A stretch of 42,535 nucleotides of DNA from an uncultured Ruminococcus sp. (lineage in GTDB: Bacteria > Bacillota > Clostridia > RUG12999): the NCBI GenBank assembly GCA_902784805.1, contig CACZWD010000003.1, positions 1 to 42,535 of the forward strand, written 5' to 3'. Made by a program: the position numbers and the translations under genes. The notes under the pieces are model-generated. The model had not been told where the DNA came from and made no database searches. It saw only the letters and a program-made list of their open reading frames with translations. This document shows positions 2,491-17,478 of the stretch, in pieces. Position 1 is the first letter of the stretch; each line of letters opens with the position of its first letter.

Positions 2491-2751
2491 ATGTTATACA
2501 ATTTAACAGAAAACAAAATTAAAAAATATAACACAATGAGTTATAAAAACGAAAACGACATTATTGAAACCATCAGAAAATTGGACGAAGATTATGATTA
2601 TACAGAATTAATGCATATTTTTAAAACTAATGAAAACTTTAAAAAAGAATTTGACGTTGGGGCTGCTGCCAACGATGTTGCACTTTTTTCTTCGTATTTA
2701 GGAGCGATAAAGCCATATCATGTTACGGTAGATTTTTATACAACAAGGTGA
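2491..2751 (+). CDS. Small hypothetical protein (86 aa)
   Basis: I do not recognise this protein. It encodes 86 residues, or 71 if translation starts at the second ATG (2536, MSYKNEND). It is Lys/Asn-rich and acidic in the middle (RKLDEDYDYTEL), with no signal peptide, membrane segment or known motif. The end (DVALFSSYLGAIKPYHVTV) is the least biased part. No good ribosome-binding site precedes either ATG, so the start is uncertain. It is the first ORF behind the promoter at 2402, and its TGA overlaps the next candidate ATG (2751) by one base, which suggests translational coupling with the membrane-anchored protein that follows. It is probably a real accessory gene. Confidence 0.55.
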   Translation: MLYNLTENKIKKYNTMSYKNENDIIETIRKLDEDYDYTELMHIFKTNENFKKEFDVGAAANDVALFSSYLGAIKPYHVTVDFYTTR

Positions 2752-2759
2752 TGATTACT

Positions 2760-3341
2760 ATGAAAAAAACTTATATTTTTTGTATAATTCTTGCGGCGAT
2801 TATTATAATTGTGCCTTTATTTTATGCTGAACAGATTGTACGTTTTGTCGGCAAAACAGCTTTAAACGCAATTTTTGCGGAATTGGAACGTGAGGATAAA
2901 GAAGATGAGATAAGAATTGCCAACGGCGAACCGATATACGGCAGAGACACCTGCCTTATATGGGCGAATACATATGAGATATGGAGGCATTCAGGTGAGA
3001 AATATCTTGATATTCAAACAAAGAAAGTATTTGGTGCAATTCTCGAAGAAATAACAATATATAGAAAAATTGATAAAAAGCTGTATATTGTCGCAAGAAC
3101 AGGCTACGCTGTTATTGATGAGGACGCGTTCTGCAAAATATATGTCAATGACGAAAGTTTGTTTAATGCTAACGATCATATTATTGAGCGAATTGAGGAC
3201 GACCATATAAAGTATTTTTCTGAATATAGCAGTTTTTCGCCGACCGAAAGAAGCAACTTTGAAAAGCTTGAAAAAAAGTACGAAAAAAGGCTTGCGCGTA
3301 AGGCGGAAAAAGAAAGGAAAAAAGCTTTAAATGAAAAATAG
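2760..3341 (+). CDS. Small membrane-anchored hypothetical protein
   Basis: I placed the start at ATG 2760 because AAGGTG (2745-2750) lies nine bases upstream; an in-frame GTG at 2748 and ATG at 2751 are alternatives. The product has about 193 residues. The N-terminus MKKTYIFCIILAAIIIIV is a signal anchor or uncleaved signal peptide. The rest is a hydrophilic, presumably extracytoplasmic domain ending in a very basic Lys/Arg/Glu helix (about the last 40 residues). No family was recognised. It overlaps the start of the next gene (3331) by 11 bases, and the four islet genes look like one transcription unit. Function unknown. Confidence 0.65.
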   Translation: MKKTYIFCIILAAIIIIVPLFYAEQIVRFVGKTALNAIFAELEREDKEDEIRIANGEPIYGRDTCLIWANTYEIWRHSGEKYLDIQTKKVFGAILEEITIYRKIDKKLYIVARTGYAVIDEDAFCKIYVNDESLFNANDHIIERIEDDHIKYFSEYSSFSPTERSNFEKLEKKYEKRLARKAEKERKKALNEK

Positions 3342-3879
3342 CAGAGAGAAACGTCATATACCGGTTTTCAAAATAATGGTTTTTATAATACTCGGAGCAA
3401 TTTTAGCCGGACTATTAAGCTTATACATATATCTGCGATTAAGGACTCCGCAAAAGGACGGGCTTTTTATTCCGCCGTCAGAAAAGAAAATCGTCCGTCA
3501 GCTTAACGAGAATTATAAAGAAATGGAATATGTTAAGGATTATGCTATGTCACAGGACAGTTTTAGCTGGCTTTATTGGGATAAGAACAATGTGGAAGCA
3601 GGCAATGAAGAAATAAATGCCTCCGATGTATCGGCAGAGCTCAAAGGTAGCCTTGAAAGGTTATATAATGCAGGCTTCCGTATGATATATGATGAATATG
3701 ACGGTATAAGCTTTGAGCGTTGGCGTGATTTTACATTTCATGTAGGGCTTATATATACTGAAAATCCCGGCTATGCGGAACAAGAAATGAAAAGCAGTAA
3801 ATATTTAAGACACGTGCATTTTAAAGAAACCGGCATAGAAAACTGGTATTATTATAATTATGATTATTATGATGATTAG
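3331..3879 (+). CDS. Membrane-anchored hypothetical protein, intact copy of a duplicated pair
   Basis: The 182-residue product has a short basic N-terminus (KNSREKRHIPVFK), one membrane helix at about 12-34 (VFIILGAILAGLLSLYIYL) and an outer domain rich in Tyr, Asp and Glu that ends in repeated YYNYDYYDD. No known family was recognised. Bases 3355-3591 recur at 4442-4678 with roughly 95% identity by eye, so this is the complete parent or sister of the broken copy at 4430. The next gene (3915) shares the layout of one membrane helix, a charged stretch and a VKDY segment, and may be a distant paralogue. The function is unknown. Clostridia often carry tandem sets of such small anchored proteins. 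Confidence 0.7.
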   Translation: MKNSREKRHIPVFKIMVFIILGAILAGLLSLYIYLRLRTPQKDGLFIPPSEKKIVRQLNENYKEMEYVKDYAMSQDSFSWLYWDKNNVEAGNEEINASDVSAELKGSLERLYNAGFRMIYDEYDGISFERWRDFTFHVGLIYTENPGYAEQEMKSSKYLRHVHFKETGIENWYYYNYDYYDD

Positions 3880-4700
3880 TTTTTGTGGCTTTTGTAAATG
3901 AAATGAGTGGTACTATGCGAATAATTAAACGAATTATAATTGCTTTAATTTCCTTATTGTTGGTTGCGCATTTTGTTTATTATGTTGCTATTCCTGTCTA
4001 TATATTCCGCGGCGGCTTTAAACCTTCCGAAAGAAGGGCGGAAAGAATTTTTCGCAGAGATAAAGATATATTGATTGACGTGAAAGATTATATAGAGGAA
4101 AATAATTACGAGAGCATTCATATTGACAAGCGAGAAGGGGAATTACATATTTACCCGGAAGAAATAAGCATAGATGATGAAAAAATAAGAAATGAAATTC
4201 AGACACTTATTTTTGATAAGCATTATAACATAATAAGCAACAACGAAGGAAATGTAGATTTTCAGATTTGGGCAACGATAGATAAAGCTGTCGGCTTTGT
4301 TTTTAATCTTGACGGCAACACGCCCGACCATGATTTTATTGTAAAAACAAAGGATTTGGGCGATGGCTGGTATCTATATGATGTTGATTTTGTGAAGTGG
4401 AAGTATATGAACAAGAAATAGGTGGTTGAATGACAAAAAAGCATATACCGGTTTTCAAAATAATAGCTTTTATAATACTCGGAGCAATTTTAGCCGGACT
4501 ATTAAGCTTATACATATATCTGCGATTAAGTACTCCGCAAAAGGACGGGCTTTTTATTCCGCCTTCGGAAAAGAAAATCGTCCGTCAGCTTAACGAGAAT
4601 TATAAAGAAATGGAGTATGTCAAGGATTACGCTATGTCACAGGACAGTTTCAAATGGCTTTATTGGGATAAGAACAATATTATGATTATTATGATGATTA
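3355..4700 (+). repeat. Direct duplication (3355-3591 and 3857-3878 repeated at 4442-4700)
   Basis: Two direct repeat units lie 1087 bases apart. The first block is 237 bases at about 95% identity by eye. The second block of 22 bases (ATTATGATT...GATGATTA) is identical and abuts the first in the downstream copy only. The gene at 3915-4421 lies between the units. Confidence 0.85.
3915..4421 (+). CDS. Membrane-anchored hypothetical protein, possible paralogue of its neighbours
   Basis: ATG 3915 (MRIIKRIIIALISLLLV) gives a typical signal-anchor start with about 168 residues. Upstream in-frame starts are GTG 3885 and ATG 3903. One membrane helix (about 4-27) is followed by a charged region, RRAERIFRRDKDILIDVKDY, comparable to KKIVRQLNENYKEMEYVKDY in the flanking genes. 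A folded outer domain follows, with aromatic residues near the end (DGWYLYDVDFVKWKY). I recognise no named family. It lies between the intact and broken copies of the duplicated gene, so the duplication jumped over it or moved a copy downstream. Function unknown. Confidence 0.65.
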   Translation: MRIIKRIIIALISLLLVAHFVYYVAIPVYIFRGGFKPSERRAERIFRRDKDILIDVKDYIEENNYESIHIDKREGELHIYPEEISIDDEKIRNEIQTLIFDKHYNIISNNEGNVDFQIWATIDKAVGFVFNLDGNTPDHDFIVKTKDLGDGWYLYDVDFVKWKYMNKK

Positions 4701-4800: not shown

Positions 4801-4827
4801 AGCGGCGCAATTTTATTTTGCGCCGCT
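4801..4827 (-). terminator. Terminator hairpin between the islet and the catabolic operon
   Basis: The perfect 10-bp stem AGCGGCGCAA / TTGCGCCGCT (4801-4810 with 4818-4827) lies 16 bases beyond the stop of the last operon gene. On the minus strand it is followed by TTATGTTTTT. It may also stop plus-strand transcripts from the islet. Confidence 0.75.
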
Positions 4828-4842
4828 GTTCATAATATTTTA

Positions 4843-5646
4843 TTATTTTACGAGCTTTTCTCTTTCGTCTTTTTCGTTATCCCAGTTTTTGTTGTATGAG
4901 AGCATAACCGACATAACACCCGAATCGACTATTAGCTCGCTGCCGCTTATTGTCCGTGCCTTATCGGAGGACAGGAAATACGCGGAGTTAGCAATATCTT
5001 CGGGATAAGATTCCATACCGAGAGGCCAGTTCGCGCGTTTTTTTTCATAATCGGCTTCGGTATAAGCTGCCCATCGGTCATTATATACCGCACCTACAAC
5101 TATAAGATTGCTTCGTATTCCGAACTTTCCGAGTTCATAACACATATTTCTGTTTAAAACGTCAATAGCGCCTTTTGAAGCGGCATAGGTAATGCGTCCG
5201 GGCAAAGCGCGCTTACTGTGTACCGAGCCTATAAGAACAATGCTTCCGCTATGCTGCTCTTTCATAATTTTTGCGGCTTCCTGACAGCAGAAAAAATATC
5301 CTCTCGCATTGCTGTTCATAACGTGGTCATATTGTTCGGGCGTGGTGGATAATATGCTCTGATTATATCCGGGGTCCGCAGCGTTTGCTACAAGCGTGTC
5401 AAGCCTGCCGAAATCATCAAACACTTTTTTAAAGGTTTCGTGTATTTTTTCGGGATATTCGGTTTCCATAGCATAGCCCTTAACCGTAACATCTTTATAT
5501 ATATCGCCTATTTCTTTTGCTGCGGCATCGGCACTATCTTGTTTGCGGCTTGTAATGCAAACATCATAACCTTCTTCCGCGAATTTCTCTGCGACCGCAA
5601 AACCGATATTCCTTGCGGCGCCTGTAATTAAAACTACCTTTCGCAT
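4843..5646 (-). CDS. SDR-family oxidoreductase (probable sugar or polyol dehydrogenase)
   Basis: The 267-residue product has the classical short-chain dehydrogenase layout: nucleotide-binding TGAARNIGFA (8-17), NAA at 88-90, and the catalytic set S141, Y154 and K158 (GSVHSKRALPG, then YAASK). The family oxidises or reduces alcohols and sugars with NAD(P). The family alone does not define the substrate. As the last gene of a tight operon, two bases after the aldolase stop, it probably oxidises an aldose, a polyol or a pathway aldehyde. ATG 5646 follows GGAG with a seven-base spacer. After the usual SDR end (VDSGVMSV) there is a short charged tail (DNEKDEREKLVK). A terminator follows. Confidence 0.85.
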   Translation of the reverse strand: MRKVVLITGAARNIGFAVAEKFAEEGYDVCITSRKQDSADAAAKEIGDIYKDVTVKGYAMETEYPEKIHETFKKVFDDFGRLDTLVANAADPGYNQSILSTTPEQYDHVMNSNARGYFFCCQEAAKIMKEQHSGSIVLIGSVHSKRALPGRITYAASKGAIDVLNRNMCYELGKFGIRSNLIVVGAVYNDRWAAYTEADYEKKRANWPLGMESYPEDIANSAYFLSSDKARTISGSELIVDSGVMSVMLSYNKNWDNEKDEREKLVK

Positions 5647-5648
5647 AA

Positions 5649-6314
5649 TTATTCTCCCTTTATATTTTTAATGGCGCTTACATGTTCCTTTGCAAGCTCT
5701 TTAATGCCGTCAAAATCACTTTTATCAATAAGGTCGCGCCTTAAAATTGTTATTCCTGTACCGAAAGCTTTTATTCCGGCTTCCGCGTACTCCGGTATAG
5801 TCTGCGGGTTTACGCCGCCCGTCGCCATAAGCGGAATATGCGAAAGCGGAGCCGATATGTTTTGAATATAATGAAGTCCGAGGTCATCGGCGGGGAACAG
5901 CTTAACTATCTGAGCGCCGAGAGTATATGCCTTTTCGATTTCTGTGGGTGTCATAGCGCCGGGTATTGAAATCATGCCGAGGCGCAGAGTTTCTTTTATT
6001 ACTGCCTCGTTTGTGTTGGGGGATATAATGTATTTCGCGCCCGCTTCGTATGCCGCCCTGACTTGCTCAACTGTTAAAACGGTTCCTGCGCCGACATATG
6101 CGTGTCCGTCCGCCGCTTCAATCATTTTTTTGATTGTTTTTACATTTTTTTCTATGCAGTCCGGCGCGGATTGGTCAAAAGTGCTTTCGATAAAACGCAC
6201 ACCGCCTTCTGTTACCGCTTTAACACATGCTTCAATTTTGTCAAGAGGAATACGTCTCGCGATTACAACAAGTTTTTTTTCAAAAAGTTCATTTAACATA
6301 TCCATTATAACCAT
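5649..6314 (-). CDS. KDPG/KDPGal-type 2-keto-3-deoxy acid aldolase
   Basis: The 221-residue class I aldolase resembles the Eda/DgoA family, which splits 2-keto-3-deoxy sugar acids (usually 6-phosphorylated) into pyruvate and an aldehyde. The Schiff-base lysine is K138 in QIVKLFPA, with E43 (FIEST), GAGTV at 76-80, SPN at 98-100 and PGAMTPTEI at 118-126. The segment that reads ETLRT in E. coli Eda is ESTFDQ here, so an arginine near the substrate is missing and a different or non-phosphorylated substrate is possible. The start overlaps the dehydratase stop by 10 bases. AAGGAG is close to ATG 6314; ATG 6305 is an alternative. It very probably acts directly after the upstream dehydratase. Confidence 0.88.
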   Translation of the reverse strand: MVIMDMLNELFEKKLVVIARRIPLDKIEACVKAVTEGGVRFIESTFDQSAPDCIEKNVKTIKKMIEAADGHAYVGAGTVLTVEQVRAAYEAGAKYIISPNTNEAVIKETLRLGMISIPGAMTPTEIEKAYTLGAQIVKLFPADDLGLHYIQNISAPLSHIPLMATGGVNPQTIPEYAEAGIKAFGTGITILRRDLIDKSDFDGIKELAKEHVSAIKNIKGE

Positions 6315-7960
6315 GTCGCTCCTTTCGCTGTTGATGAAACATTTCTGGCAAAAAGCCTTAAGAAGGGTTTGAATTTTTCTTCCTGAAGCTTCCAGTCTGT
6401 TTCGGATAAACGTTTTTCAATTTCTTCATCACTTACATTTAAAGTTATTTCTCTGTTTTTAACGTCAATATGAATTTTGTCGCCGTTACGTATTGCTGCA
6501 AGCGGACCTTTTATGGCAGCTTCGGGAGCTACATAGCCAATGCTGAGTCCGCTTGTGCCGCCGGAAAAACGACCGTCCGTTATAATGGCAACCTTATCAT
6601 GTATGTCCATACCGGCAACTTCTTTCTGGAAGGCAAAAGCTGTCGTTCCGAAACGTCCTTTTGGTCCAAGATAATTTATAACTATTGCGTCTCCCGCGGC
6701 AATATCTCCGTTGCGAAGAGCCTTTATTGCGTCGTCAACCTCTGAAAAAACTTTTGCTTTGCCGTCAAATACCATAAGATTTTCAGGCACGGCGGCAGTT
6801 TTTAAAATCGCTCCTTCCGGGGCAATATTGCCTTTTAAAACCGCGATTCCACCATCACTTGAAATTGGATTGTTAAGAGGATGAATAACATCTTCGTCAT
6901 AAACCACGGCGTTACGGTAATTTTCTTCAAGAGTTTTTCCGTTGATTGTTTTGCAATCCTTATTTAAAAGAGGCAAAAGCGTTTTCATAAGAGCTTTCAT
7001 ACCGCCTGCCCGCTCAAAATCGTTAAAATAATATTTTCCGTTCGGGGCTATTGCTGTAATAAGCGGTATTTTGTGCGACACTTCATCAAAGAAGCTCCAC
7101 CAATCTCTGTCAATACCCGCTTCGTGAGCAATAGCGGGAATATGCAAAAGAAGGTTTGTCGAACCTGCTATGGCAGTATCGGTTATAATTGCGTTTTCTA
7201 TTGCCTTTTCCGTTATAATATCTCTTGCCGTTATGCCTTTTTTAACCATTTCCATAACATATTTGCCGGACTCATACGCTGCTCTGCCAAGCCGTTTATC
7301 GGTAGCGTTTATTGTAGCGTTTCCGGGCACTGTCATTCCTAACGCTTCGGCAATACAGCACATACTGTTGGCGGTTGTCATTGAGCCGCAGGCTCCCGCT
7401 CCGGCATGAGCGCAGGAAACCATACATGAAAATTCTTCATGGCTGACTTTTCCCTGCATAACTTTTCCGACTGTTGTAGAAACTTCGGTAAGCCCGATTT
7501 CACGTCCCTTATAAAAGCACAGAGGCATATATCCGCCCGTTACAATAACTGTCGGTATATTAAGTCTTGCCGCCGCCATAAGCTGTCCCGGAACTATTGA
7601 ATCGCATGTGCCGAGAAGAACCATACCGTCAAACATATTAGCCTCGACATTAAGCTCAATTTCATCTGCGATAAGGTTGCGGCTCGGCAGCTCAATATAG
7701 CGGGGGTCTTTAAGTACCATACCGTCGCAAATACCTGTTGTTACAAGCTCAAACGGCAAACCGCCGGCTTCACGTACTCCGTCCTTTACACGCTGCGCGA
7801 TTTCTTTAAGATGTACGTGCCCGGGATTGTATTCGTTCCACGAATTTACAATCGCGATATACGGTTTTTTTATTTCGTCCTCCGAATACCCCATACCATA
7901 AAGAATACCGTCTCTTTTTACACTTCCGACTCCAAATTCCCATTTACTTCTCTCAAACAT
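6305..7960 (-). CDS. IlvD/EDD-family sugar-acid dehydratase
   Basis: The 551-residue protein belongs to the dihydroxy-acid / 6-phosphogluconate / aldonic-acid dehydratase family, which removes water to give 2-keto-3-deoxy acids using an Fe-S cluster and Mg2+. Likely cluster cysteines are C78 (ICDG, the position used in EDD), C119 (GTCDS) and C191 (ACGSMTTAN). The first IlvD cysteine is G47. E102 in IADEIEL and the GRFSGGTSGLSIG segment with the catalytic serine are present. The metal-binding CDK lysine, carboxylated in characterised members, is Ser121. Because the next gene is a keto-deoxy acid aldolase, a catabolic sugar-acid role is far more likely than valine synthesis. ATG 7960 lies two bases after the kinase stop, behind GAAAGGAAATTAAAA. 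Confidence 0.9.
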   Translation of the reverse strand: MFERSKWEFGVGSVKRDGILYGMGYSEDEIKKPYIAIVNSWNEYNPGHVHLKEIAQRVKDGVREAGGLPFELVTTGICDGMVLKDPRYIELPSRNLIADEIELNVEANMFDGMVLLGTCDSIVPGQLMAAARLNIPTVIVTGGYMPLCFYKGREIGLTEVSTTVGKVMQGKVSHEEFSCMVSCAHAGAGACGSMTTANSMCCIAEALGMTVPGNATINATDKRLGRAAYESGKYVMEMVKKGITARDIITEKAIENAIITDTAIAGSTNLLLHIPAIAHEAGIDRDWWSFFDEVSHKIPLITAIAPNGKYYFNDFERAGGMKALMKTLLPLLNKDCKTINGKTLEENYRNAVVYDEDVIHPLNNPISSDGGIAVLKGNIAPEGAILKTAAVPENLMVFDGKAKVFSEVDDAIKALRNGDIAAGDAIVINYLGPKGRFGTTAFAFQKEVAGMDIHDKVAIITDGRFSGGTSGLSIGYVAPEAAIKGPLAAIRNGDKIHIDVKNREITLNVSDEEIEKRLSETDWKLQEEKFKPFLRLFARNVSSTAKGATWL

Positions 7961-7962
7961 TT

Positions 7963-9111
7963 TTAATTTCCTTTCAGATAATTATAAGTATTTAACGCTA
8001 CCATAAGTTCCTCATTTACAGGCGTTATATATATTTTAATTTTCGAGCTTTCGGTTGATATTAAAAGCGGCTCCCTATCCGCTTTTAAATTTATAAGCCT
8101 ATCATATGTTTCGGCTCCGAGGAATTTTAATCTGTCAATTATTTTTTGCTTTACGAGGACACTGTTTTCACCTATTCCGCCCGAAAAGCTTATTGCGTCA
8201 ACGCCGCCGAGACAGGCGAGAAATGAGCAGATATATTTTGCTACGCTGTAAGCGTAAGCTTCAATTACATCGTCGCAGCCGTTATTTTCAAGCTCACGCA
8301 TATCGCCGTTTTTTCCGCTCATACCTTTTAGACCGCATTTCGTGCTTAAAAAATCTCTTGCGTCATCTATACTCATATTTTCTTTTTCCATAAGATATAG
8401 AAGGGCAAAAGCGTCAATATCACCGCAGCGGTTGTTCATCGGCAGCCCGCTTTGAGGCGAAAAGCCCATACTTGTGTCAAGCGATTTCCCGTCAAGTATA
8501 GCGCATACCGACGAGCTTCCGCCGAGATGCACGGAAATAAGCCTTTTGTTTTCTTTTCCGAGCTTATATGCGGCATAACTGTGCGCAGCGCCATGGAAAC
8601 CGTACTTTCGTATGCCGTATTTTTCTGCGAGAGCAGAATCAATGGAGTACATATAAGCGTATTTTGGAATGGTGCTGTGAAAAGCGGTCTCAAAAGAGCC
8701 TACACACGGAATATCAGGGAAAAGCTTTTTTATTTCGCGTATCGCATTTATATAAGGAATGTTATGCGCGGGAGCAACGCTCAGATATTCTTCCATTTTT
8801 GAAACAACATTATCATCAAGCTCTGCGGTACGGTTGATATTTCCCGCCATAACGGTTTTAAAGGCTATGGCGTTGATTTTAATATCATTTCCGATAAATT
8901 TAAAAACTTTTTTCAAAGCTATCCCGTATCCGCTGCTTGTATCGGTTTTACCGCTTTTTTTAGTTTCATTTTTTTGAAAAACGTAATCACTGTCCGTAGA
9001 AAAAACAGAGCTTATTTGTCCGTTTGCGATAATATTTTGGCGTGTTATCTCGTAAAGTTTAAATTTAAGCGAGGTACTTCCGATATTTAATACAAGTATA
9101 TTAAAGTCCAT
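7963..9111 (-). CDS. Acetate-kinase-family acyl (or carbamoyl) phosphate kinase
   Basis: The 382-residue product has the ASKHA fold of acetate/propionate kinases, which make ATP from an acyl phosphate and ADP. Recognisable parts are NIGSTSLKFKL (9-19), GFHGAAH (171-177), HLGGSSS (195-201), MNNRCGDID (226-233), SFSGGIGEN (309-316) and PVNEELM (364-370). Several near-invariant residues differ: the GHRVVHGGE segment reads AFKTVMAGN (Arg to Lys at 85), FDTAFH reads FETAFH (Asp to Glu at 141), and HLGNGSS reads HLGGSSS. The kinase fold is clear, but acetate is unlikely to be the substrate. The start ATG 9111 (behind GGTGATAAAT) is preferred to 9123. It overlaps the DUF1116 gene, whose product probably supplies its acyl phosphate. 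Confidence 0.85.
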   Translation of the reverse strand: MDFNILVLNIGSTSLKFKLYEITRQNIIANGQISSVFSTDSDYVFQKNETKKSGKTDTSSGYGIALKKVFKFIGNDIKINAIAFKTVMAGNINRTAELDDNVVSKMEEYLSVAPAHNIPYINAIREIKKLFPDIPCVGSFETAFHSTIPKYAYMYSIDSALAEKYGIRKYGFHGAAHSYAAYKLGKENKRLISVHLGGSSSVCAILDGKSLDTSMGFSPQSGLPMNNRCGDIDAFALLYLMEKENMSIDDARDFLSTKCGLKGMSGKNGDMRELENNGCDDVIEAYAYSVAKYICSFLACLGGVDAISFSGGIGENSVLVKQKIIDRLKFLGAETYDRLINLKADREPLLISTESSKIKIYITPVNEELMVALNTYNYLKGN

Positions 9112-10513
9112 ATTTATCACCATATGCTATGAGCGCTTTTTCAAAACATTCAAAAGGAACTCTTGCTGTTCCCGCGCCAAGCCTTTTTCCTGTTTTGGAT
9201 ATCATTCCGCCGTGGATTACGGGTTCGATGCCCGTTTCAATAACCTTTCGTATATCAATTCCTGTAGGCGTACCCCTGTAATTTAAAGCTGGGATAAGAT
9301 AGTTTTTGTTTTCGGTAATGGTGATTTCAGCCATTTCAAGAGTCTGCTCAATTCCGTCGTTCAAGGTTTTGTCAAGCGAACGCATTACGGCAGGCGCCGC
9401 CGCTGCGGCAAAACCTCCGAGACCGGTGCTTTCAAGTATGCAGCTGTCACCAATCCATGGCAGAACCTCATCGGAATTAACGGCAGCTACATATTCACCT
9501 GTAAGCATAGGGGAGGGAGCGTTAAACCACTCGGTTCCCAGACCGCTTACTTTTATAGCGTAATTTACGCCATTTCCGACCATTGCCGTTACAACGGTAG
9601 AATAATCTACGTGACGGACAGCTTCAAGCAGCGACATTGCGGATGCCATACCGAGAGGGTGGAAAAACCTTACCGTTCCGTAAAGAAGGTCAACGCATTT
9701 TTTGCGCTCGTCATCTGTTATATCTGCGTCGAACAGCATTTTCATAAGCTCGTTTGTGGCAATAATTCCCGTTGCGTCCTGCCTTGAATGAAGCTCGTCA
9801 CCCATTTCGACGCCCCTTGTAAATATTTTTCGCATTGCCATTCCGCCGTTTGATTCAAGCACGTTTGTCATTGCGGGAGCAATTATGTCATGCACCATAT
9901 TAAGATGCTCTCTTATACTTTCGTTAAATATGCCCCAGCCTGCAAGCCCACCTCTGTTCGGACCTTCAAACGGAGGGCAAAAGCCTTTAAAGCCCGTGTT
10001 TTTATCCTCAACAATATTTACAGCCATGGAAGGCGTTGTTATACCGGAGCCGGGTCCTACAAGATGATAGTCGTTTGAAGAAACAAAACGGATTTTGCCG
10101 CTTTCAAGCAGTTTTCTTGCCTCATCTTCATCTTTTGCGTATCCTTCAAACATTACGCCGTTTATACCGCCCTGCTTTTGAGTTTCACACATATCTTCCC
10201 ATGCGATATCGGGTCCCGAATGCATTATCATTCCGTCCTCAACACCGGGCACACATTCTTTTGCCGGTTTCATACCTATCCAGTAAGGGTCGGTGTTATC
10301 AAAAATTTCGATAACTTTTTTGTTTGCTTCGTCAATTTTTTTTGAAAAATCCGAATACACTGTTTTTTCAAGCAGAGTTTTTGCGCGCTCGCTTAACGGA
10401 AAGGTTTTTCCCGGCTTCCAGTTAAGCTGAACCGCATTTCCGCCTTGTTGTTTTATTGCGTCCGCAAAAACATCCGTACCCACATTTATAACATTTATTT
10501 CATCTTTTAGCAT
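9101..10513 (-). CDS. DUF1116 protein (YlbE/AllG-like), partner of FdrA
   Basis: The 470-residue product has DUF1116 hallmarks: IMHSGPDIAWEDMCE (96-110), VMFEGYAKDEDEA (120-132), LVGPGSGITTPSM (151-163), GVEMGDELHSRQDATG, the glycine-rich STGLGGFAAAAAP and the C-terminal TGTARVPFECFEKAL-like end. In E. coli the homologue YlbE (AllG), with FdrA and YlbF, is reported to form oxamate carbamoyltransferase. An N-terminal segment (about 5-37, INVINVGTDVF then NWKPGK) resembles the C-terminus of E. coli FdrA rather than YlbE, so the module boundary seems shifted. ATG 10513 follows GGAGAGAG and overlaps the FdrA gene by 7 bases, as expected for a stoichiometric complex. Confidence 0.88.
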   Translation of the reverse strand: MLKDEINVINVGTDVFADAIKQQGGNAVQLNWKPGKTFPLSERAKTLLEKTVYSDFSKKIDEANKKVIEIFDNTDPYWIGMKPAKECVPGVEDGMIMHSGPDIAWEDMCETQKQGGINGVMFEGYAKDEDEARKLLESGKIRFVSSNDYHLVGPGSGITTPSMAVNIVEDKNTGFKGFCPPFEGPNRGGLAGWGIFNESIREHLNMVHDIIAPAMTNVLESNGGMAMRKIFTRGVEMGDELHSRQDATGIIATNELMKMLFDADITDDERKKCVDLLYGTVRFFHPLGMASAMSLLEAVRHVDYSTVVTAMVGNGVNYAIKVSGLGTEWFNAPSPMLTGEYVAAVNSDEVLPWIGDSCILESTGLGGFAAAAAPAVMRSLDKTLNDGIEQTLEMAEITITENKNYLIPALNYRGTPTGIDIRKVIETGIEPVIHGGMISKTGKRLGAGTARVPFECFEKALIAYGDKYGL

Positions 10514-12054
10514 AATTTTTCTCTCTCCGTTTCTTCAATTAAATCTAAAGCAATTTCAGCAATTTCTTTGTTTGTATCGGCAATTATTACGCCGGCATCT
10601 TTTAATATCTGCGCTTGTTTTTCAAAATCCTGAGGGTCCATATCGCTTCCGCAAATTGTTGCGATTACGGTAAGATGCCGTCCTTCCTCCTGCGCCCGTT
10701 TTTTCTCCCCAGTTATAACCTCCGACATAACGGAGGCAGGGTCGGGGTGGAGCGCATATCCGAGCAGAAAATCAAGATATATAACTGCGGTTTCGGGGTC
10801 TCTTGCTTCTTTTATAAAGCGGTTTACCCTTGCCGTCGGGTCAATAGCAACGTGCGCTCTGCCTTTTGTAAAGGTTTCGTCACCAATATCAATTACGGTA
10901 TGTTTATAGCTTTCAAAGGGATTTTCAAGCATAAATTCCGGTTTTATCGCGACATTTGAATAAAGCTCTCTGCCGCTTTTGCTCCATAAAAGCTGTGTTT
11001 CGTCCGCAAGTGAGCCGCCGCAAAGTATGGCTCTGAAATACTTTTGCGAAGGAGCGTATTTTTTAACCTCCGCTTTCACATCAAAATCATTATTAAATAC
11101 CTTTTTAAGAGTAACCTTTTTGCCGCTCGAAAGTTCCATAACCTTTACAGCGGTTTCATCAAAGGATTCGGAGTACATTATGCCGTTTTCTTCAAGCAAT
11201 TTGTTATTTCCGTTTATAAACTGTACAACAACAGGTTTTGAACATTTTTTTATAACGTCAATTATTTTGAGCAGCGCCGACTCGGCAGGGGGTTTTGAAA
11301 TAAGAGCGATAACTTTTGTGTTTTCGTCTTTTTCAAGGGCTTTTATACTCATTGCCATTGTAATTCCGCCAACCTCATCGGACATATCCCTTCCGCCCGT
11401 ACCTATTGCGTGAGAAATACCAAAACCGTTTCGGTGAACAAGCACCATAACCTCCTGAATACCGCTTCCCGAAGCTCCGGCAAGACCGATATTTCCACGA
11501 TGGACCATACTGCAAAGTCCTATTGCCGTGCCGTTTATGAACGATAAGCCGCAGCCCGGTCCCATCATAAACAGTCCTTTTGAAAGCGCAAGTTTTTTAA
11601 GCTCGACTTCATCTTCGATACTTACGTTATCGCTGAACATAAAAACGTTCATTCCGTTTAAAAGGGCTCTCTTTGCCTCTTTTGCCGCATATTCGCCGGC
11701 AACGGATATAACAGCCATATTTGCTTCGGGCACAGCGGCTTTTGCGCCCGATATACTTCTGAACGAGCTTGAAGTATCTGATTTTTCAGAAATGAGTTCT
11801 TCAAATTTTTCTTTTGCTTTTTCACAGTCCGCTTCGGTTTCCGCCCTTACCGCAATAATAAGGTCGTTCGGACCTGTGCTTTCCGCTTCATTCGTCCAAA
11901 GACCGAGGTCGCTGATTGTATCTTTATTAAGCGGTGTGCCCATACCGATTGAAGCATTGTCAACCCCGTCCGTTTCCGCAAGACGCCTTGCAATTTTCAT
12001 AAGAAACACCGAATCGTAATAACGGTTTTTCTCAATGTAATTTTTTATAACCAT
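10507..12054 (-). CDS. fdrA: FdrA-family protein (acyl-CoA-synthetase-like, AllF-like)
   Basis: The 515-residue product aligns by eye with E. coli FdrA: the N-terminal YYDSVFLMKIARRL and GMGTPLNKD (37-45), ISVAGEYAAKEA (116-127), FSDNVSIEDEVELK (140-153), GASGSGIQE (193-201), AIGTGGRDMSDEVGG (216-230), SKPPAES (253-259) and a second Rossmann half with IDPTARV. The fold resembles succinyl-CoA synthetase alpha plus the ligase domain, but the GHAGA phospho-histidine region is missing, so it cannot use the usual phosphohistidine route. E. coli FdrA is reported to be part of oxamate carbamoyltransferase. ATG 12054 follows GAGGAGTTGATAAA and overlaps the DUF2877 gene. It probably forms a complex with the DUF1116 and DUF2877 proteins. 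Confidence 0.9.
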   Translation of the reverse strand: MVIKNYIEKNRYYDSVFLMKIARRLAETDGVDNASIGMGTPLNKDTISDLGLWTNEAESTGPNDLIIAVRAETEADCEKAKEKFEELISEKSDTSSSFRSISGAKAAVPEANMAVISVAGEYAAKEAKRALLNGMNVFMFSDNVSIEDEVELKKLALSKGLFMMGPGCGLSFINGTAIGLCSMVHRGNIGLAGASGSGIQEVMVLVHRNGFGISHAIGTGGRDMSDEVGGITMAMSIKALEKDENTKVIALISKPPAESALLKIIDVIKKCSKPVVVQFINGNNKLLEENGIMYSESFDETAVKVMELSSGKKVTLKKVFNNDFDVKAEVKKYAPSQKYFRAILCGGSLADETQLLWSKSGRELYSNVAIKPEFMLENPFESYKHTVIDIGDETFTKGRAHVAIDPTARVNRFIKEARDPETAVIYLDFLLGYALHPDPASVMSEVITGEKKRAQEEGRHLTVIATICGSDMDPQDFEKQAQILKDAGVIIADTNKEIAEIALDLIEETEREKLC

Positions 12055-12872
12055 TTTATCAACTCCTCACCATTTGCCATACTGTAACCGAACAAAATAC
12101 CATAACATGTTTCAATACCCGAAGTGCTGCCGTATTCCGCCAGTTCGTAGGTTAATGCTTTAAGCTTGTTTCCGTCACCGCAAATTGAATTTATCAGTTC
12201 ATAAAGACTTGAATTTATATAGCCTTCGGCAACATCAATAAGCAAATTTTTGCTTACGGTTGTTGTTTTAACATCTCCTTTCAGCTTTAAAAATTCTGTA
12301 AGCTTTTCGTTAAAACCGGTATAACCGTATAAAAGGTAATTCCATGCCGCAATCCCCGATATAATATCATCGCAGGAAGGTGTAAGACCTACACCGAGAC
12401 CTATTAAGCTTTCAAAACCCTCTGTTTCGTTTTTTTGCATTTTCATAAGTCCGCGTAAAAGCTTTTGCGTATATATTTTTTCGGTGATAACAGGACTTTT
12501 TTTTCCGATTTTTTTTAAAAAACAATAAAATTTTATTATATTTCGCGGCACATCCCCGGATTTTTTCAGTTTTTCTCTGTGAACGGATATAATCTTCGGA
12601 GAATTGGCAATAAAAGCAATATTGCCTACAAAAATACCGTCGTTTTTTTTAACGGCTTTGTCGCCGTTTTCAAGTTCTATACCGCAAAAATCCGTGCCGC
12701 AGTCACAAATATACGCTCTTGTTGAAAATTTTTGCTTATTGTTAAAAACGGTAATCAGCTCGCCGCCGTCCGTAACTATATTAAAGCAATGCCTGTATAT
12801 TCCGCAAATTGTTCCGCTTTGCCATTTAATGCTGTTTGCCCTGTCGCAGACATAATCAATTTCATATATCAT
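12045..12872 (-). CDS. DUF2877 protein (YlbF/AllH-like)
   Basis: The 275-residue product carries the family signature LGVGLTPSCDDIISG at about residues 159-173 (LTPSxDD). DUF2877 proteins are nearly always encoded beside FdrA and DUF1116. In E. coli YlbF (AllH) is the third component of oxamate carbamoyltransferase. The N-terminal half looks beta-rich and the C-terminal half helical, with no membrane segment. The gene overlaps the flavoprotein gene by 11 bases and FdrA by 10, so translation is coupled. There is no strong ribosome-binding site; ATG 12866 is an alternative start. The usual Gly before the Asp pair (TPSGDD) is Cys here. Confidence 0.85.
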   Translation of the reverse strand: MIYEIDYVCDRANSIKWQSGTICGIYRHCFNIVTDGGELITVFNNKQKFSTRAYICDCGTDFCGIELENGDKAVKKNDGIFVGNIAFIANSPKIISVHREKLKKSGDVPRNIIKFYCFLKKIGKKSPVITEKIYTQKLLRGLMKMQKNETEGFESLIGLGVGLTPSCDDIISGIAAWNYLLYGYTGFNEKLTEFLKLKGDVKTTTVSKNLLIDVAEGYINSSLYELINSICGDGNKLKALTYELAEYGSTSGIETCYGILFGYSMANGEELIKWL

Positions 12873-14421
12873 CTTTTGAAAATATAAAGCTCAGGAGGTA
12901 TTTATCATCGGTATTGGGATAATCCTTTCTTGAGTGGACTCCTCTGCTTTCCTTTCGTTTTATTGCCGCTTTAACACAGCAGGTACATACAACAAGCATA
13001 TTTTCACATTCTTTTTTTGAGACCTCCGCTTTAAAATCGGCGGGAGTATAATCACGGATTTGCTCCGATATTTCTTTAAGTTTTGTTTTTAGAAGTACAA
13101 GCTCTTTTTCAGTTCTTAAAGGTCCCATATAATTTGACATATTCTCATATATAGTCTTTTTAATATTTTCAAAAAAATCCTTTTGAGCATTACCGTAAAC
13201 GCTTGTTTGTTCTTCTGAAAAAGATGGATGGGGGACAGAGCAGTTTTTCGCGTATTCCGCCGCGCTTTTCCCTGCAATTGTTCCGAAAACATATACCTCC
13301 GTACCCGCATTTCCGCCGACTCTGTTTGCCCCATGAAGCCCACCTGTAACTTCGCCCGCGGCAAAAAGCCCATTAACCGAAGTGCGGCATTTTTCGTCAA
13401 CGACAACTCCGCCCATAAACGAGTGAGCGCAGGGAGCCACTTCTATTTTTTCTTTTGTAATATCTATTCCCGCGCCGAGAAAACGTTTATAATATAGAAT
13501 ATGGCCTTTTTTGATTTCTTTTTCGGGTATGTCCGTAAGGTCAAGATAAACGCCTCCGTGCGGCGTGCCGTTTCCTTTTTTGATTTCAGCGTAAATAAGC
13601 TTCGCAAGGGAGTCTTTCGGAATTTCGCCCTCGCTGCTATATTCTTTAAGCAAAAAGCGTTCCCCGTTTTTATTTGTTATTTTACCGCCATGACTTAAAA
13701 GCGTTGTGGATATTCCGAGCTTTTGAGGGAAAATACATCTGCACGGCTCAAATTGTATAAACTCCATATCGGTAAGATATGCTCCGGCTCTCAGCGCCGC
13801 TCCGTAGCCGTCGCCTGTCATGCAGGGGGCATATGTGCTTTCGCTTTCTATATGTATTCCTCCGCAGGCAAGAACAACCGCTTTTGCGCAGATATAAAAT
13901 TTAATTTCGTTTTGAAGGTCAAAAACCGATGCGCCGATTACTTTATTATCTTTTGTGATTAAATCACAGAGCATGGCGTTATCTATGATTTTTACACCGT
14001 TTTTTACGGCTTCCTCTTTATATCTTTCAAGCGTGGTTTTACCTGTGTGATTTTCAATATGCACAAGCCGCTCCGTACTGCAGCCAAGAGGTCTAAGCAG
14101 ATTATATCCTTTTTCGTTTTTGTCAAATTTAAGACCTAAATGTTCTATGTTTTTCACTTCATCTGCCGAGTTTTTCGCAAGCGTAAAAGCAAGCTCCTGT
14201 TTTCCTATATATTTGCCGCCTTTAACCGTATCCTCACAAAAGAGCGCTGTGCTGTCGTTTTCGGACACGGCAGCGTTAAAGCCCAGAATATAATTTGAAG
14301 CGGCAATGCTGCTTTTTGAGATGACGGCTACTTTTAAACCGCAAAGCGAAGCGCTATACGCAGCTTTTATTCCCGCCAGTCCGGCGCCGGCAATAAGTAT
14401 ATCGGTATAAACGCTGTTCAT
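12862..14421 (-). CDS. FAD-dependent oxidoreductase of the fumarate reductase/aspartate oxidase superfamily
   Basis: The 519-residue product has the N-terminal FAD motif GAGLAGIKAA (12-21), a second nucleotide motif ending in LACGGIH (184-190), GDGYGAALRAGA (203-214), DMEFIQF (218-224), a capping region, GLFAAGEVTGGLHGANRVGGNA (351-372) and a helical C-terminal domain. It has no signal peptide, haem site or iron-sulphur domain, so it is a soluble single-subunit flavoenzyme. Residues that bind the dicarboxylate in FrdA, SdhA and NadB are altered: QFHPT is QFEPC (E225) and PRD is PKD (K269), whereas H333 and R367 remain. It probably oxidises or reduces another substrate, perhaps an amine or hydroxy acid. 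ATG 14421 lies two bases after the amidohydrolase stop. Confidence 0.85.
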   Translation of the reverse strand: MNSVYTDILIAGAGLAGIKAAYSASLCGLKVAVISKSSIAASNYILGFNAAVSENDSTALFCEDTVKGGKYIGKQELAFTLAKNSADEVKNIEHLGLKFDKNEKGYNLLRPLGCSTERLVHIENHTGKTTLERYKEEAVKNGVKIIDNAMLCDLITKDNKVIGASVFDLQNEIKFYICAKAVVLACGGIHIESESTYAPCMTGDGYGAALRAGAYLTDMEFIQFEPCRCIFPQKLGISTTLLSHGGKITNKNGERFLLKEYSSEGEIPKDSLAKLIYAEIKKGNGTPHGGVYLDLTDIPEKEIKKGHILYYKRFLGAGIDITKEKIEVAPCAHSFMGGVVVDEKCRTSVNGLFAAGEVTGGLHGANRVGGNAGTEVYVFGTIAGKSAAEYAKNCSVPHPSFSEEQTSVYGNAQKDFFENIKKTIYENMSNYMGPLRTEKELVLLKTKLKEISEQIRDYTPADFKAEVSKKECENMLVVCTCCVKAAIKRKESRGVHSRKDYPNTDDKYLLSFIFSKDDI

Positions 14422-14423
14422 TT

Positions 14424-15347
14424 TTATTCCTCACATTCTCCAAGTAATTTAAGCGCATTTTTACGGCAAATTTTTTCATATGTTTCAAAAGAAATTTTAC
14501 CGTCAAGATACGCATTGTCAAGAAATTCCGAGAGCTTAAGCATATCATACGCGGGGTTTTGGGGATTGATATTTTCGGGGTCGTGAATATCTGTTGCGTA
14601 GAAAATTTTGTCCGCAAATTCTTCCATAAATTTATATGTATAATCAAGGTCACGCGCCATGGCACGATATCCTGAAAGTGAAGATAAATCACAGTACAGG
14701 TTGCTGTATTTTCTCATAAGCTCTCCGACTCTGCCTTCGCGTACAACCCTGCCGGCAGGATAAGAATCTCGTGTTTCTTCGGTCACATCGGCGCCAAGCT
14801 CCGACCAAAATCTTACGGAATGACCGATAACTTTAAGCTCCGGAAACATTTTAAGCACTTTTTCAAGCTTAGGCAGACCAAGCTCATCTACAACGCCGTA
14901 ATCATTTTTGGGTTTTCCAAAATGCAGCGTTACGGACATACCGCATTTTTCGCAGTGTGAAAAGAGATTAAGCAAACGAGGGTCATCAAGCGGGATATTG
15001 GGTATCAGTTCACTTACACCTTTTGCGCCTTGCGATTTATAATAGTTTAAATAATGCGAAAAATCCGTTTGAGGATTATTGTTTCCAAACCTCGGGTCGA
15101 TTCCGCAGAACCACCATCCGATTGTATTATTATATTTTTCGGCAATTCTTTTTGCTTCTCTCGGAGAAAGTCTTTCGGTTGTAAATTCAGGGCAGGTTCC
15201 GGGAGGCAGCAGAACGCCTTTTTCAACGCCTATTTTATCATATATTTTTCTAAGCTCTTTCACCGTAGGATAAAAATGCCCCGATAATTTCGGAATACCC
15301 CTTTCTTCAATACAATGAACGTGCATATCTATTTTTTTTAACAGCAC
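14424..15347 (-). CDS. Amidohydrolase-2 family metal-dependent hydrolase (lactonase or amidase candidate)
   Basis: I chose GTG 15347 because GGAGG lies eight bases upstream; the frame is open to ATG 15398, but that extension looks like leader. The 307-residue product starts directly with the beta-strand and metal ligands KKIDMHVH (H9, H11), followed by LHFGK, VIGHSVRF and FYATDIHD, the usual later His and Asp ligands of the TIM-barrel amidohydrolase-2 group. The family contains lactonases, decarboxylases and amide hydrolases. First in the operon, with a dehydratase and aldolase downstream, it may open a sugar lactone. With the FdrA module present, cleavage of a cyclic amide or ureide is an equal possibility. 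Confidence 0.82.
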   Translation of the reverse strand: MLLKKIDMHVHCIEERGIPKLSGHFYPTVKELRKIYDKIGVEKGVLLPPGTCPEFTTERLSPREAKRIAEKYNNTIGWWFCGIDPRFGNNNPQTDFSHYLNYYKSQGAKGVSELIPNIPLDDPRLLNLFSHCEKCGMSVTLHFGKPKNDYGVVDELGLPKLEKVLKMFPELKVIGHSVRFWSELGADVTEETRDSYPAGRVVREGRVGELMRKYSNLYCDLSSLSGYRAMARDLDYTYKFMEEFADKIFYATDIHDPENINPQNPAYDMLKLSEFLDNAYLDGKISFETYEKICRKNALKLLGECEE

Positions 15348-15527: not shown

Positions 15528-16610
15528 ATGAAAAACGAAAAAATCCCTGCCGTCATTGAAAAAAGCTTTAAAAACACTGTTTGGTGCAAGGAAATTTTAG
15601 AAGGAATAGGAAAACATAATTTTTTTGATATCGGAGAAAACGGCTTTTGCAATCTTGAAGAAAACTCCGTCATATTGATTATAGGTTCGTCAAATTATTT
15701 TTTAAATTCAAATATAAACGAATGTATGCGGCATAATTTAAAAGCTGTTGTTGTCGGAACCGATTTTAACGATTCCGCTCATAACATTAGCTGCGTTGTT
15801 GTAGATAGGGCATCGGCAACCTTCAGAGCCGTAAAATATTTCAGTCTGCTTGAAAAATTACCCATAGCGCTTTTTGGAATATCAAGATATTCAAGCTCGG
15901 ATTTAAGTAAAAAGGAAGCATTTAAAAAAGCAAGCGCGGCGTTATCGCTTGATTTTTCGGAAGATGATATATATTATTTTGATGAAGGCAGCGTTAAATG
16001 TACCATGACTTTTTTGAAAAACGCCAAAAAATATAAGTCGGTTATATGCTCAAACGATTATTTCGCGACAGCGCTTGTATATTATGCGGCGCATGCCGGG
16101 ATAGCCGTACCCGATGATTTAATTATAATGGGATACGGAAATTCACCGATAGGCGAAAAAGTGCGCCCTTCTCTTTCGACGGTAGCTCCCAAATACCGTC
16201 AAATGGGTATTCAGGCAGCTAAAATATACTCATATCTGATGGCAAATAAAGATGTTAATTCGGTCAATGTTTTTGTGGATTATGATATAATAATAAGAGA
16301 AAGCACAGGTAAAGCGGAAATTATAAAAAAAAGCAGTCAACTCATGGATAATTTTCTTCCTTGTCACAGCAGTATGTTTAATGATGATTTTATAAGCAAA
16401 ATTACAGCTCTTGACGCGGTCATTTACAATGCTGACGAAACCACAATGAAAATTTTACGCGGGATCGTTAATGATATTTCATATGCCAAGCTTGCCGAAA
16501 CGCTTTTTCTTTCAGATACGGCGTTAAGATACCGGTTAAACAAAATTTTTTCGATGACTTATTGCAGTTCCCGAAAAGAGTTAAAAGAACTTCTGCAAAT
16601 TATTTTTTGA
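15528..16610 (+). CDS. Transcription regulator: LacI-type sensor domain with a C-terminal helix-turn-helix
   Basis: The 360-residue product is mostly a periplasmic-binding-protein fold of the LacI/GalR sensor type (about 30-280): VILIIGSSNYF, VVVDRASATFRAVKYF, SVICSNDYFATALVYYA, VPDDLIIMGYGNSPIGEKVRPSLSTV and a final IIIRES. The N-terminus has no LacI helix-turn-helix. Instead the last 60 residues (AKLAETLFLSDTALRYRLNK, then SSRKEL) look like a LuxR/GerE-type helix-turn-helix. Sensor first and DNA-binding domain last is unlike LacI and also unlike AraC-type XylR, which has two helix-turn-helix motifs. It diverges from the nine-gene operon and probably controls it by binding a sugar-like ligand. 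GAGAGG lies 12 bases before the start. Confidence 0.82.
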   Translation: MKNEKIPAVIEKSFKNTVWCKEILEGIGKHNFFDIGENGFCNLEENSVILIIGSSNYFLNSNINECMRHNLKAVVVGTDFNDSAHNISCVVVDRASATFRAVKYFSLLEKLPIALFGISRYSSSDLSKKEAFKKASAALSLDFSEDDIYYFDEGSVKCTMTFLKNAKKYKSVICSNDYFATALVYYAAHAGIAVPDDLIIMGYGNSPIGEKVRPSLSTVAPKYRQMGIQAAKIYSYLMANKDVNSVNVFVDYDIIIRESTGKAEIIKKSSQLMDNFLPCHSSMFNDDFISKITALDAVIYNADETTMKILRGIVNDISYAKLAETLFLSDTALRYRLNKIFSMTYCSSRKELKELLQIIF

Positions 16611-16623
16611 GAAAGGAAATATA

Positions 16624-17478
16624 ATGGATATTGTTTTAAAAAATGAGTTTCTTACAGTAAAAATCAATTCACGCGGAGCAGAGCTTCACAGCATAAAAAA
16701 AGGGGATACCGAATATATCTGGCAGGCTGACCCCGAGGTATGGGGCAGCAGCGCGCCTGTTCTTTTTCCGATATGCGGGCGGCTTAAAGACAATGCGTAT
16801 AATTATAAAGGCAAAGAATACAAGCTTAATCCTCATGGATTTGCGAGAAATCTTGATTATAGGACGGAAAAGCTTACGGAAACCGAAGCTCTGCTTTCGG
16901 CGGAAGCCAATGAAGAAACACGGAAGGTTTATCCTTTTGAATTTAAGTTTTTTGTTGGTTTTAAGCTTTGTGAAACCAAGCTTAAAATTACATATTCGGT
17001 ACAAAATATATCGGGCAGCCGAATATATTTTTCTTTCGGAGGACATGAGGGCTATGCCTGTCCGGAAGGCGCGGAAGAATATTCGGTTGCGTTTCCAAAA
17101 GATACCGCTTTAACACGCCATATGTTAAGCGAAGGCTTTTTCAACGGAAAAACCGAGAGTATTGAGCTTGAAAACGGCGAATTAAAGCTCCGTTACGATG
17201 AGTTTGAAAAATGCACATATATTTTTAAAACCTTGTGCTCGGACAGTGTAATTTTACATAATAAAGATAATTCAAGGCGTATCAGAGTAAGCTTTGAAAA
17301 AGATATAAAAACCCTTGCGCTGTGGACGCTGCGTGGCAGAAAATACGTTTGTATAGAGCCATGGTGGGGAACATCTCAAAACGAAAGCTTTAACGGGAGT
17401 TTTGACAAAAAGGACGGTGTTGTTTCGCTTGACGCGGGCAAAACCTTCACGCGTACTCACTGCATAGAAATTCTTTAA
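16624..17478 (+). CDS. LacX-like aldose 1-epimerase family protein
   Basis: The 284-residue protein has the galactose-mutarotase fold. Visible features are NSRGAELHSI, the ICGRLKDNAYNYKG segment, the conserved NPHGFARN (His at about 72), SFGGHEGYACPEG, and a late CIEPWWG motif typical of the LacX branch. Enzymes of this fold interconvert alpha and beta aldoses; LacX-type members have poorly defined sugar or sugar-phosphate substrates. It begins 13 bases after the regulator stop behind GAAAGGAAATATA, so the two are co-transcribed. Its place beside the sugar-acid operon suggests preparation of the sugar substrate. The stop codon overlaps that of the convergent ABC-F gene by four bases with no terminator between. 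Confidence 0.85.
   Translation: MDIVLKNEFLTVKINSRGAELHSIKKGDTEYIWQADPEVWGSSAPVLFPICGRLKDNAYNYKGKEYKLNPHGFARNLDYRTEKLTETEALLSAEANEETRKVYPFEFKFFVGFKLCETKLKITYSVQNISGSRIYFSFGGHEGYACPEGAEEYSVAFPKDTALTRHMLSEGFFNGKTESIELENGELKLRYDEFEKCTYIFKTLCSDSVILHNKDNSRRIRVSFEKDIKTLALWTLRGRKYVCIEPWWGTSQNESFNGSFDKKDGVVSLDAGKTFTRTHCIEIL

Follow-up and report, generated by a model that had tools for sequence, protein, structure and literature searches.

A conserved nine-gene operon predicted to place an oxamic transcarbamylase-type complex in oxidative sugar catabolism

Why should relatives of the three-subunit oxamic transcarbamylase (OXTCase), a complex hitherto known from ureide breakdown, be encoded among genes for sugar-acid catabolism? 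The question is raised by an operon in a 42,535-nucleotide stretch of DNA, hereafter the window, from an uncultured Ruminococcus sp. (GenBank assembly GCA_902784805.1, contig CACZWD010000003.1, positions 1 to 42,535). Open reading frame and profile checks showed all nine genes to be present in the order and families first noted, on the minus strand from 15347 to 4843: an amidohydrolase (AMH), a flavoprotein, the AllH, AllF and AllG subunits, an acetate-kinase homologue, an IlvD/EDD dehydratase, an Eda-type aldolase and an SDR oxidoreductase. The successive intergenic gaps are 2, -11, -10, -7, -23, 2, -10 and 2 bases. An earlier note, made from the sequence alone, had assigned the trio to the AllFGH/FdrA family and the kinase to the acetate-kinase homologues, as profile matches bear out, and had taken the nine genes to be one unit whose two halves are needed together by no described pathway. 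None emerged from our literature search either: the joining of FdrA/DUF1116 with an acetate kinase, or the phosphorolysis of an acylpyruvate, was not found in the literature covered, which excludes subscription papers and preprints.

To keep the neighbouring genes from steering the choice of loci, genomes were searched with AllG alone and the flanks were annotated afterwards. Loci were initially tallied by AllG score, and an AllG tree was added against circularity. In this tree (109 rows), the sugar-linked rows all belong to a single clade (SH-aLRT 100) that contains no carbamate-kinase-linked row, and the change between the two states is needed only once; the AllF tree gives an equal count. 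The neighbours of the 46 loci of this clade are AllF (43), IlvD (37), flavoprotein (35), SDR (35), acetate-kinase homologue (33), MBL-fold lactonase (31), AllH (29), Eda (24) and KDG-kinase-like PfkB (20), and GH43, HpcH/HpaI aldolase and KDG-kinase-like genes mark the surroundings as sugar-acid metabolism. Carbamate kinase is found near none of these 46 loci but near 36 of the 65 other AllG loci, where IlvD, flavoprotein and acetate kinase each score 0/65. Many clade loci end at contig edges; the 32 with good flanks contain the flavoprotein in 31, IlvD in 30, SDR in 29, a predicted lactonase (MBL-fold or AMH, with inferred substrates) in 29, the kinase in 26, AllH in 26 and the whole core in 23, and IlvD is missing beside the FdrA half only in loci L040 and L049. 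L049 belongs to the isolate Oligosphaera ethanolica DSM 24202 and has AllF, AllG, AllH and the kinase side by side.

Of the 46 clade loci, 35 come from Bacillota, 5 from Verrucomicrobiota, 3 from Lentisphaerota and 1 from Planctomycetota. Since the genes recur together in four phyla, their association is far beyond chance, and it is near certain that the nine-gene operon is real, a conserved unit and not a chance join. The co-occurrence across genomes that the earlier note had proposed to check thus holds for the FdrA trio, the acetate-kinase homologue and IlvD; the Eda aldolase is accessory, being present in about half of the loci (24/46) and outside the core. The sugar type is rare and patchy, as none of 40 AllG loci inspected from other genomes in a 398-genome phylum sample was of this type. 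As separate observations, locus L040 (6302-14397) has AllF, AllG, flavoprotein and kinase genes after one for a TRAP transporter, with IlvD and SDR not in view, and is the deepest branch of its subclade; the Actinomadura AllG loci (L066, L069, L070 and L076-L078) have neither carbamate kinase nor sugar genes near.

What would such a unit do? We favor, as the moderately probable reading, an oxidative, non-phosphorylative sugar pathway with a phosphorolytic final cleavage (a phosphorolytic Route III), in which we infer every substrate and reaction from sequence. The mutarotase and the SDR would convert an aldose to its lactone, which the AMH, or an MBL-fold lactonase elsewhere, would open to the aldonate, and IlvD would dehydrate the aldonate to a 2-keto-3-deoxy acid. 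On chemical grounds, the flavoprotein would then dehydrogenate this acid at C3-C4 to a 2,4-diketo-3-deoxy acid in its enol form, and the AllFGH-type trio would use inorganic phosphate to cleave the product to pyruvate and an acyl phosphate, from which the acetate-kinase homologue would transfer the phosphate to ADP, giving ATP. Pyruvate, ascribed in the earlier note to the dehydratase and aldolase, would come instead from the trio step.

The predicted central step draws on a likeness between substrates. Oxalurate is HOOC-CO-NH-CO-NH2; the 2,4-diketo-3-deoxy acid, HOOC-CO-CH2-CO-R, has CH2 in place of the NH, so that the trio would retain its chemistry and switch its substrate. The activity that this implies is a thiamine-free, phosphorolytic C-C cleavage of 2,4-diketo-3-deoxy acids (acylpyruvates) by an AllFGH-type complex, yielding an acyl phosphate and then ATP via a dedicated kinase, and we hold the chances for and against it to be about even. 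By general knowledge of Claisen-type cleavages, the thermodynamics of the step seem favorable.

We analyzed the three subunits by comparing the sugar clade with the OXTCase clade. AllF (10507-12054; NCBIfam FdrA above cut-off, match to PDB 3dmy) has 39 residues common to both clades and only 3 clade-specific columns, whereas AllG (DUF1116; 9101-10513; Pfam AllG, match to PDB 3clq) has 51 common invariants and 17 clade-specific fixed substitutions. Of these 17 changes, 12 lie no more than two residues from an invariant (p 0.003). The invariant pattern in AllF and AllG would fit the same chemistry on a new substrate, and the contrast between 17 fixed changes in AllG and 3 in AllF makes AllG the likely specificity subunit. 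AllH (DUF2877; 12045-12872; Pfam AllH) has 12 residues common to the two clades. Despite a confident model (pLDDT 94), a fold search with AllH returned no PDB match at E<=0.001, and this subunit and its homologues probably adopt a fold that lacks a solved example. A second AllFGH-like trio, YahEFG, is encoded with YahI in E. coli (locus L082, 926-6116); its AllG member, YahG (472 aa), resembles the AllG of the window in its long N-terminus. To our knowledge, YahEFG is uncharacterised.

The operon kinase (7963-9123; TIGR00016 above cut-off) is a divergent member of the acetate-kinase family and a predicted acyl kinase. Residues N7, S12, K14, H123, H180, R241, G331 and E384 (M. thermophila numbering) are kept in 31/31 sequences, so that it shares with AckA and TdcD both the family and the catalytic residues N7, H123, H180, R241 and E384. 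It differs from them by changes that are likewise fixed in 31/31: R91K, D148E, N211G, G212S, and the replacement of L122, an acyl-pocket residue, by Ala, Val or Ser. The operon kinases form a single clade, to which none of the eight canonical AckA/TdcD sequences in the sample belongs. In each of four module genomes checked, there is a second, canonical AckA, and the operon copy is therefore probably dedicated.

The flavoprotein (12862-14421; FAD_binding_2 and Succ_DH_flav_C) is of the succinate dehydrogenase (SDH)/fumarate reductase/aspartate oxidase type, can be aligned with SdhA and aspartate oxidase, and is a predicted 2-keto-3-deoxy-acid 4-dehydrogenase. Like these relatives, it belongs to the FAD family and keeps one carboxylate-binding end: H333 and R367, equivalent to SdhA H354 and R399, which bind one substrate carboxylate. 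At the other positions it departs from the SDH type, as H242 and R286 of SdhA are replaced by E225 and K269 in the window, a pair of substitutions fixed in 35/35, and no iron-sulfur partner gene adjoins it. The retained and replaced residues would fit an acid that bears a single carboxylate and a tail with hydroxyl groups. A complex II (succinate dehydrogenase/fumarate reductase) function was also considered for the flavoprotein and rejected, the operon having no iron-sulfur partner.

The AMH (14424-15347; weak Pfam Amidohydro_2), an Amidohydrolase_2-fold hydrolase, has a GTG start close behind GGGAGGGG. It occurs in 4 loci, the MBL-fold lactonase in 31, and the two together in none; we call it a predicted sugar lactonase because it replaces the MBL-fold lactonase of the sister operons, a pattern that speaks against the cyclic-amide role suggested for it earlier. 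Its model (pTM 0.83) matched amidohydrolase-2 decarboxylases and the COG3618 proteins 4dlf and 4do7 in Foldseek with similar TM-scores, so the fold does not separate a lactonase from a decarboxylase. IlvD (6305-7960; Pfam ILVD_EDD) is a predicted aldonate dehydratase of a DHAD-like subtype. No other IlvD was found in the window's genome, and the same holds for genome G049, so that a double role is possible; the window's genome assembly of 1.67 Mb is 84% complete, which restricts absence calls for it. The remaining genes encode the Eda-type keto-deoxy aldolase (5649-6314; Pfam Aldolase, TIGR01182 slightly below cut-off) and the SDR (4843-5646; Pfam adh_short_C2), a predicted aldose 1-dehydrogenase.

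Two known systems frame the proposal. E. coli AllFGH interconverts oxalurate plus phosphate with oxamate plus carbamoyl phosphate, and kinetics are given for oxamate and carbamoyl phosphate (Kim and Kim 2024, PMC11326118). Like AllFGH with AllK, the operon encodes three homologous subunits together, with the shared invariants counted above (51 in AllG, 39 in AllF and 12 in AllH), and pairs them with a kinase for which an acyl-type phosphate would be the source of ATP. Unlike the E. coli system, its trio lies in a separate clade, its AllG carries the 17 fixed changes, the partner is an acetate-kinase homologue instead of a carbamate kinase, and the context is sugar acids and not ureides. Route III consists of a mutarotase, an aldose dehydrogenase, a lactonase, a dehydratase, a C4 dehydrogenase and a FAH-family hydrolase (Watanabe 2019, PMC6336799; L-KDFDH paper, PMC11199699). 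The operon offers candidates for the mutarotase, aldose dehydrogenase, lactonase, dehydratase and C4 oxidation, and the predicted cleavage likewise gives pyruvate and a hydroxy acid; in contrast to Route III, the flavoprotein would stand in for the SDR 4-dehydrogenase, and the trio and kinase, with a gain of ATP, for the FAH hydrolase. Classed by family, this would be a Route III-like pathway that employs a complex of the OXTCase type, and the activity itself would be new if the chemistry holds. The FAH-family hydrolase (PF01557) would then be the part missing relative to Route III, and it is depleted, a point that we count in favor of the phosphorolytic pathway: it is present in 2/16 module genomes against 72/118 phylum genomes (p 0.0003; kinship confounds the rate); the window's genome is without it.

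The identity of the sugar is suggested by one subclade. In loci L045, L050, L042 and L046, from four genomes, the operon continues past the kinase and AllH into EtfB, EtfA and LctD; for L042 and L046 this part sits on apparent continuing contigs (L187 and L188). A lactate racemase gene, LarA, lies ahead of EtfB-EtfA-LctD in L045 and L042, and LctD of L045 matches the bifurcating lactate dehydrogenase subunit of PDB 7qh2 with 684 bits. This continuation points to lactate, hence to lactoyl phosphate and a 6-deoxyhexose, and lactoyl is the probable acyl group in this subclade, with a 6-deoxyhexose such as rhamnose as the probable sugar. LctD of the bifurcating type is present in 12/20 module genomes against 13/148 phylum genomes (p 5e-7; 2e-5 with near kin collapsed, some kinship remaining), and rhamnosidases and fucosidases occur in 12/16 and 7/16 module genomes, respectively, which is suggestive only as these counts have no background rate. 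The LctD-EtfAB genes, found at the operon end in those four genomes, are on another contig in the window's genome, and for the window's own species we make no choice among several candidate sugars. Two module-bearing genomes, G461 and G465, have a second cluster (L192 and L193) with aldolase-like, PfkB-like, epimerase, GlcD-like oxidase, EtfBA-LctD, LarA and FGGY kinase genes, which is perhaps another route ending in lactate.

The same phosphorolytic pathway could instead act on a pentose, with glycolate as product, or on a hexose such as galactose, with glycerate as product, and the sugar may vary by operon. This is possible though doubtful: GH43 genes adjoin the module in six loci, L025 has GH35 and a FAD-linked (GlcD-type) oxidase, a galactonate dehydratase adjoins L009 and L017, and Route III is known for pentoses, where it yields glycolate. 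Glycolate requires no racemase, however, and the LctD continuation in four genomes, the lactate racemase in two and, suggestively, the rhamnosidases of 12/16 module genomes favor a deoxysugar. A different division of labor, in which the 4-keto group would be the work of the SDR, following classical Route III, and the flavoprotein would perform another redox step, for example on the lactone or aldonate, or serve as an electron sink, is in our view unlikely. The known KDF, KDR and KDP 4-dehydrogenases are SDRs, and the window SDR yields nothing more specific than generic SDR matches, but a single SDR is usual among the operons, and the lactonase must be preceded by an aldose dehydrogenase; glucose 1-dehydrogenases are among the best PDB matches of the L045 SDR. 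Moreover, the flavoprotein gene stands immediately before AllF in 19 loci, and SDH-type chemistry would yield the C3-C4 enol.

If the trio still transferred carbamoyl, the substrate would be an N-carbamoyl or cyclic-amide sugar and the acetate-kinase homologue would act on carbamoyl phosphate. The three-subunit family and its common invariants are shared with E. coli oxamic transcarbamylase, yet carbamate kinase is absent at every clade locus, which makes this model improbable; at genome level, none scored above cut-off in G000, G020, G049 and G059, although one is present in G028, of the OXTCase type. Nitrogen genes were not seen recurring beside the module, where sugar-acid genes do recur, and the fixed AllG changes adjoin its conserved motifs. 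Of the earlier proposal that the trio releases an acyl or carbamoyl phosphate, the acyl alternative, leading to ATP, fits this evidence best and the carbamoyl alternative is not supported. Two unrelated half-pathways under one promoter, the dehydratase half ending with Eda and the FdrA half having another substrate, might be argued from the Eda and KDG-kinase-like genes of many loci; with Eda an optional part and IlvD so seldom missing beside the FdrA half, we find such an arrangement very improbable. Scarcely credible is a pathway via acyl-CoA, with the trio as a CoA ligase (acyl-CoA synthetase FdrA): FdrA does contain CoA_binding and Ligase_CoA domains, but the GHAGA phospho-histidine motif of succinyl-CoA ligase is found in 0/95 AllF sequences, no CoA enzyme was seen recurring in the operons, and in E. 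coli FdrA serves as a subunit of oxamic transcarbamylase. The CoA ligase model was rejected on the absence of the motif.

Several observations weigh against the phosphorolytic pathway. In the papers found, no AllFGH relative is described as cleaving a C-C bond phosphorolytically. The operon IlvD resembles DHAD, and the clade IlvD C-termini end mostly in GGIWE or GATW, with no C-terminal His, whereas characterised sugar-acid dehydratases of IlvD/EDD carry one (PMC11316719). The operon has no iron-sulfur partner gene as a candidate electron acceptor for the flavoprotein; the SdhB-type iron-sulfur subunit (Fer2_3) had no match in G000 and G049 and scored above cut-off in 3/16 module genomes, two of these matches being partial. 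The kinase is missing from 6/32 well-covered loci, some of which may use a distant one. Finally, the LctD link is confined to one subclade, and both the LctD and the FAH rates are confounded by kinship.

Known Route III-type routes for deoxysugars and pentoses dissipate as heat the energy that the final cleavage sets free. If the phosphorolytic pathway is true, anaerobes of the gut, rumen and digesters would gain an extra ATP per sugar; substrate-level phosphorylation would have a new site in anaerobic sugar catabolism, and lactoyl phosphate would be an intermediate in some species. The AllFGH-type complex would have a second, carbon-based function and would provide a natural test of AllG's control over substrate choice, and a family of operons whose annotations now read fumarate reductase, acetate kinase, DHAD and DUFs would acquire a function.

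In the window, the operon start is bordered by a regulator and an aldose epimerase, both on the plus strand. The divergent regulator (15528-16610; Pfam sugar-binding Peripla_BP_3, HTH-like C-terminus) has a sugar-sensor counterpart in the equivalent position in L009 and L017, and its apparent helix-turn-helix is C-terminal rather than N-terminal as in the LacI type. The aldose 1-epimerase (16624-17478; Pfam Aldose_epim), the candidate mutarotase, has counterparts near 9/46 clade loci. At the other end, a predicted intrinsic terminator on the minus strand (4801-4827) lies 15 bases past the SDR stop and has a 10-pair stem with 7 G-C pairs and a T-rich tail. Beyond it, at 2748-4421, three small open reading frames in tandem (197, 182 and 178 aa; GC 0.34) encode proteins with hydrophobic N-termini and no Pfam match.

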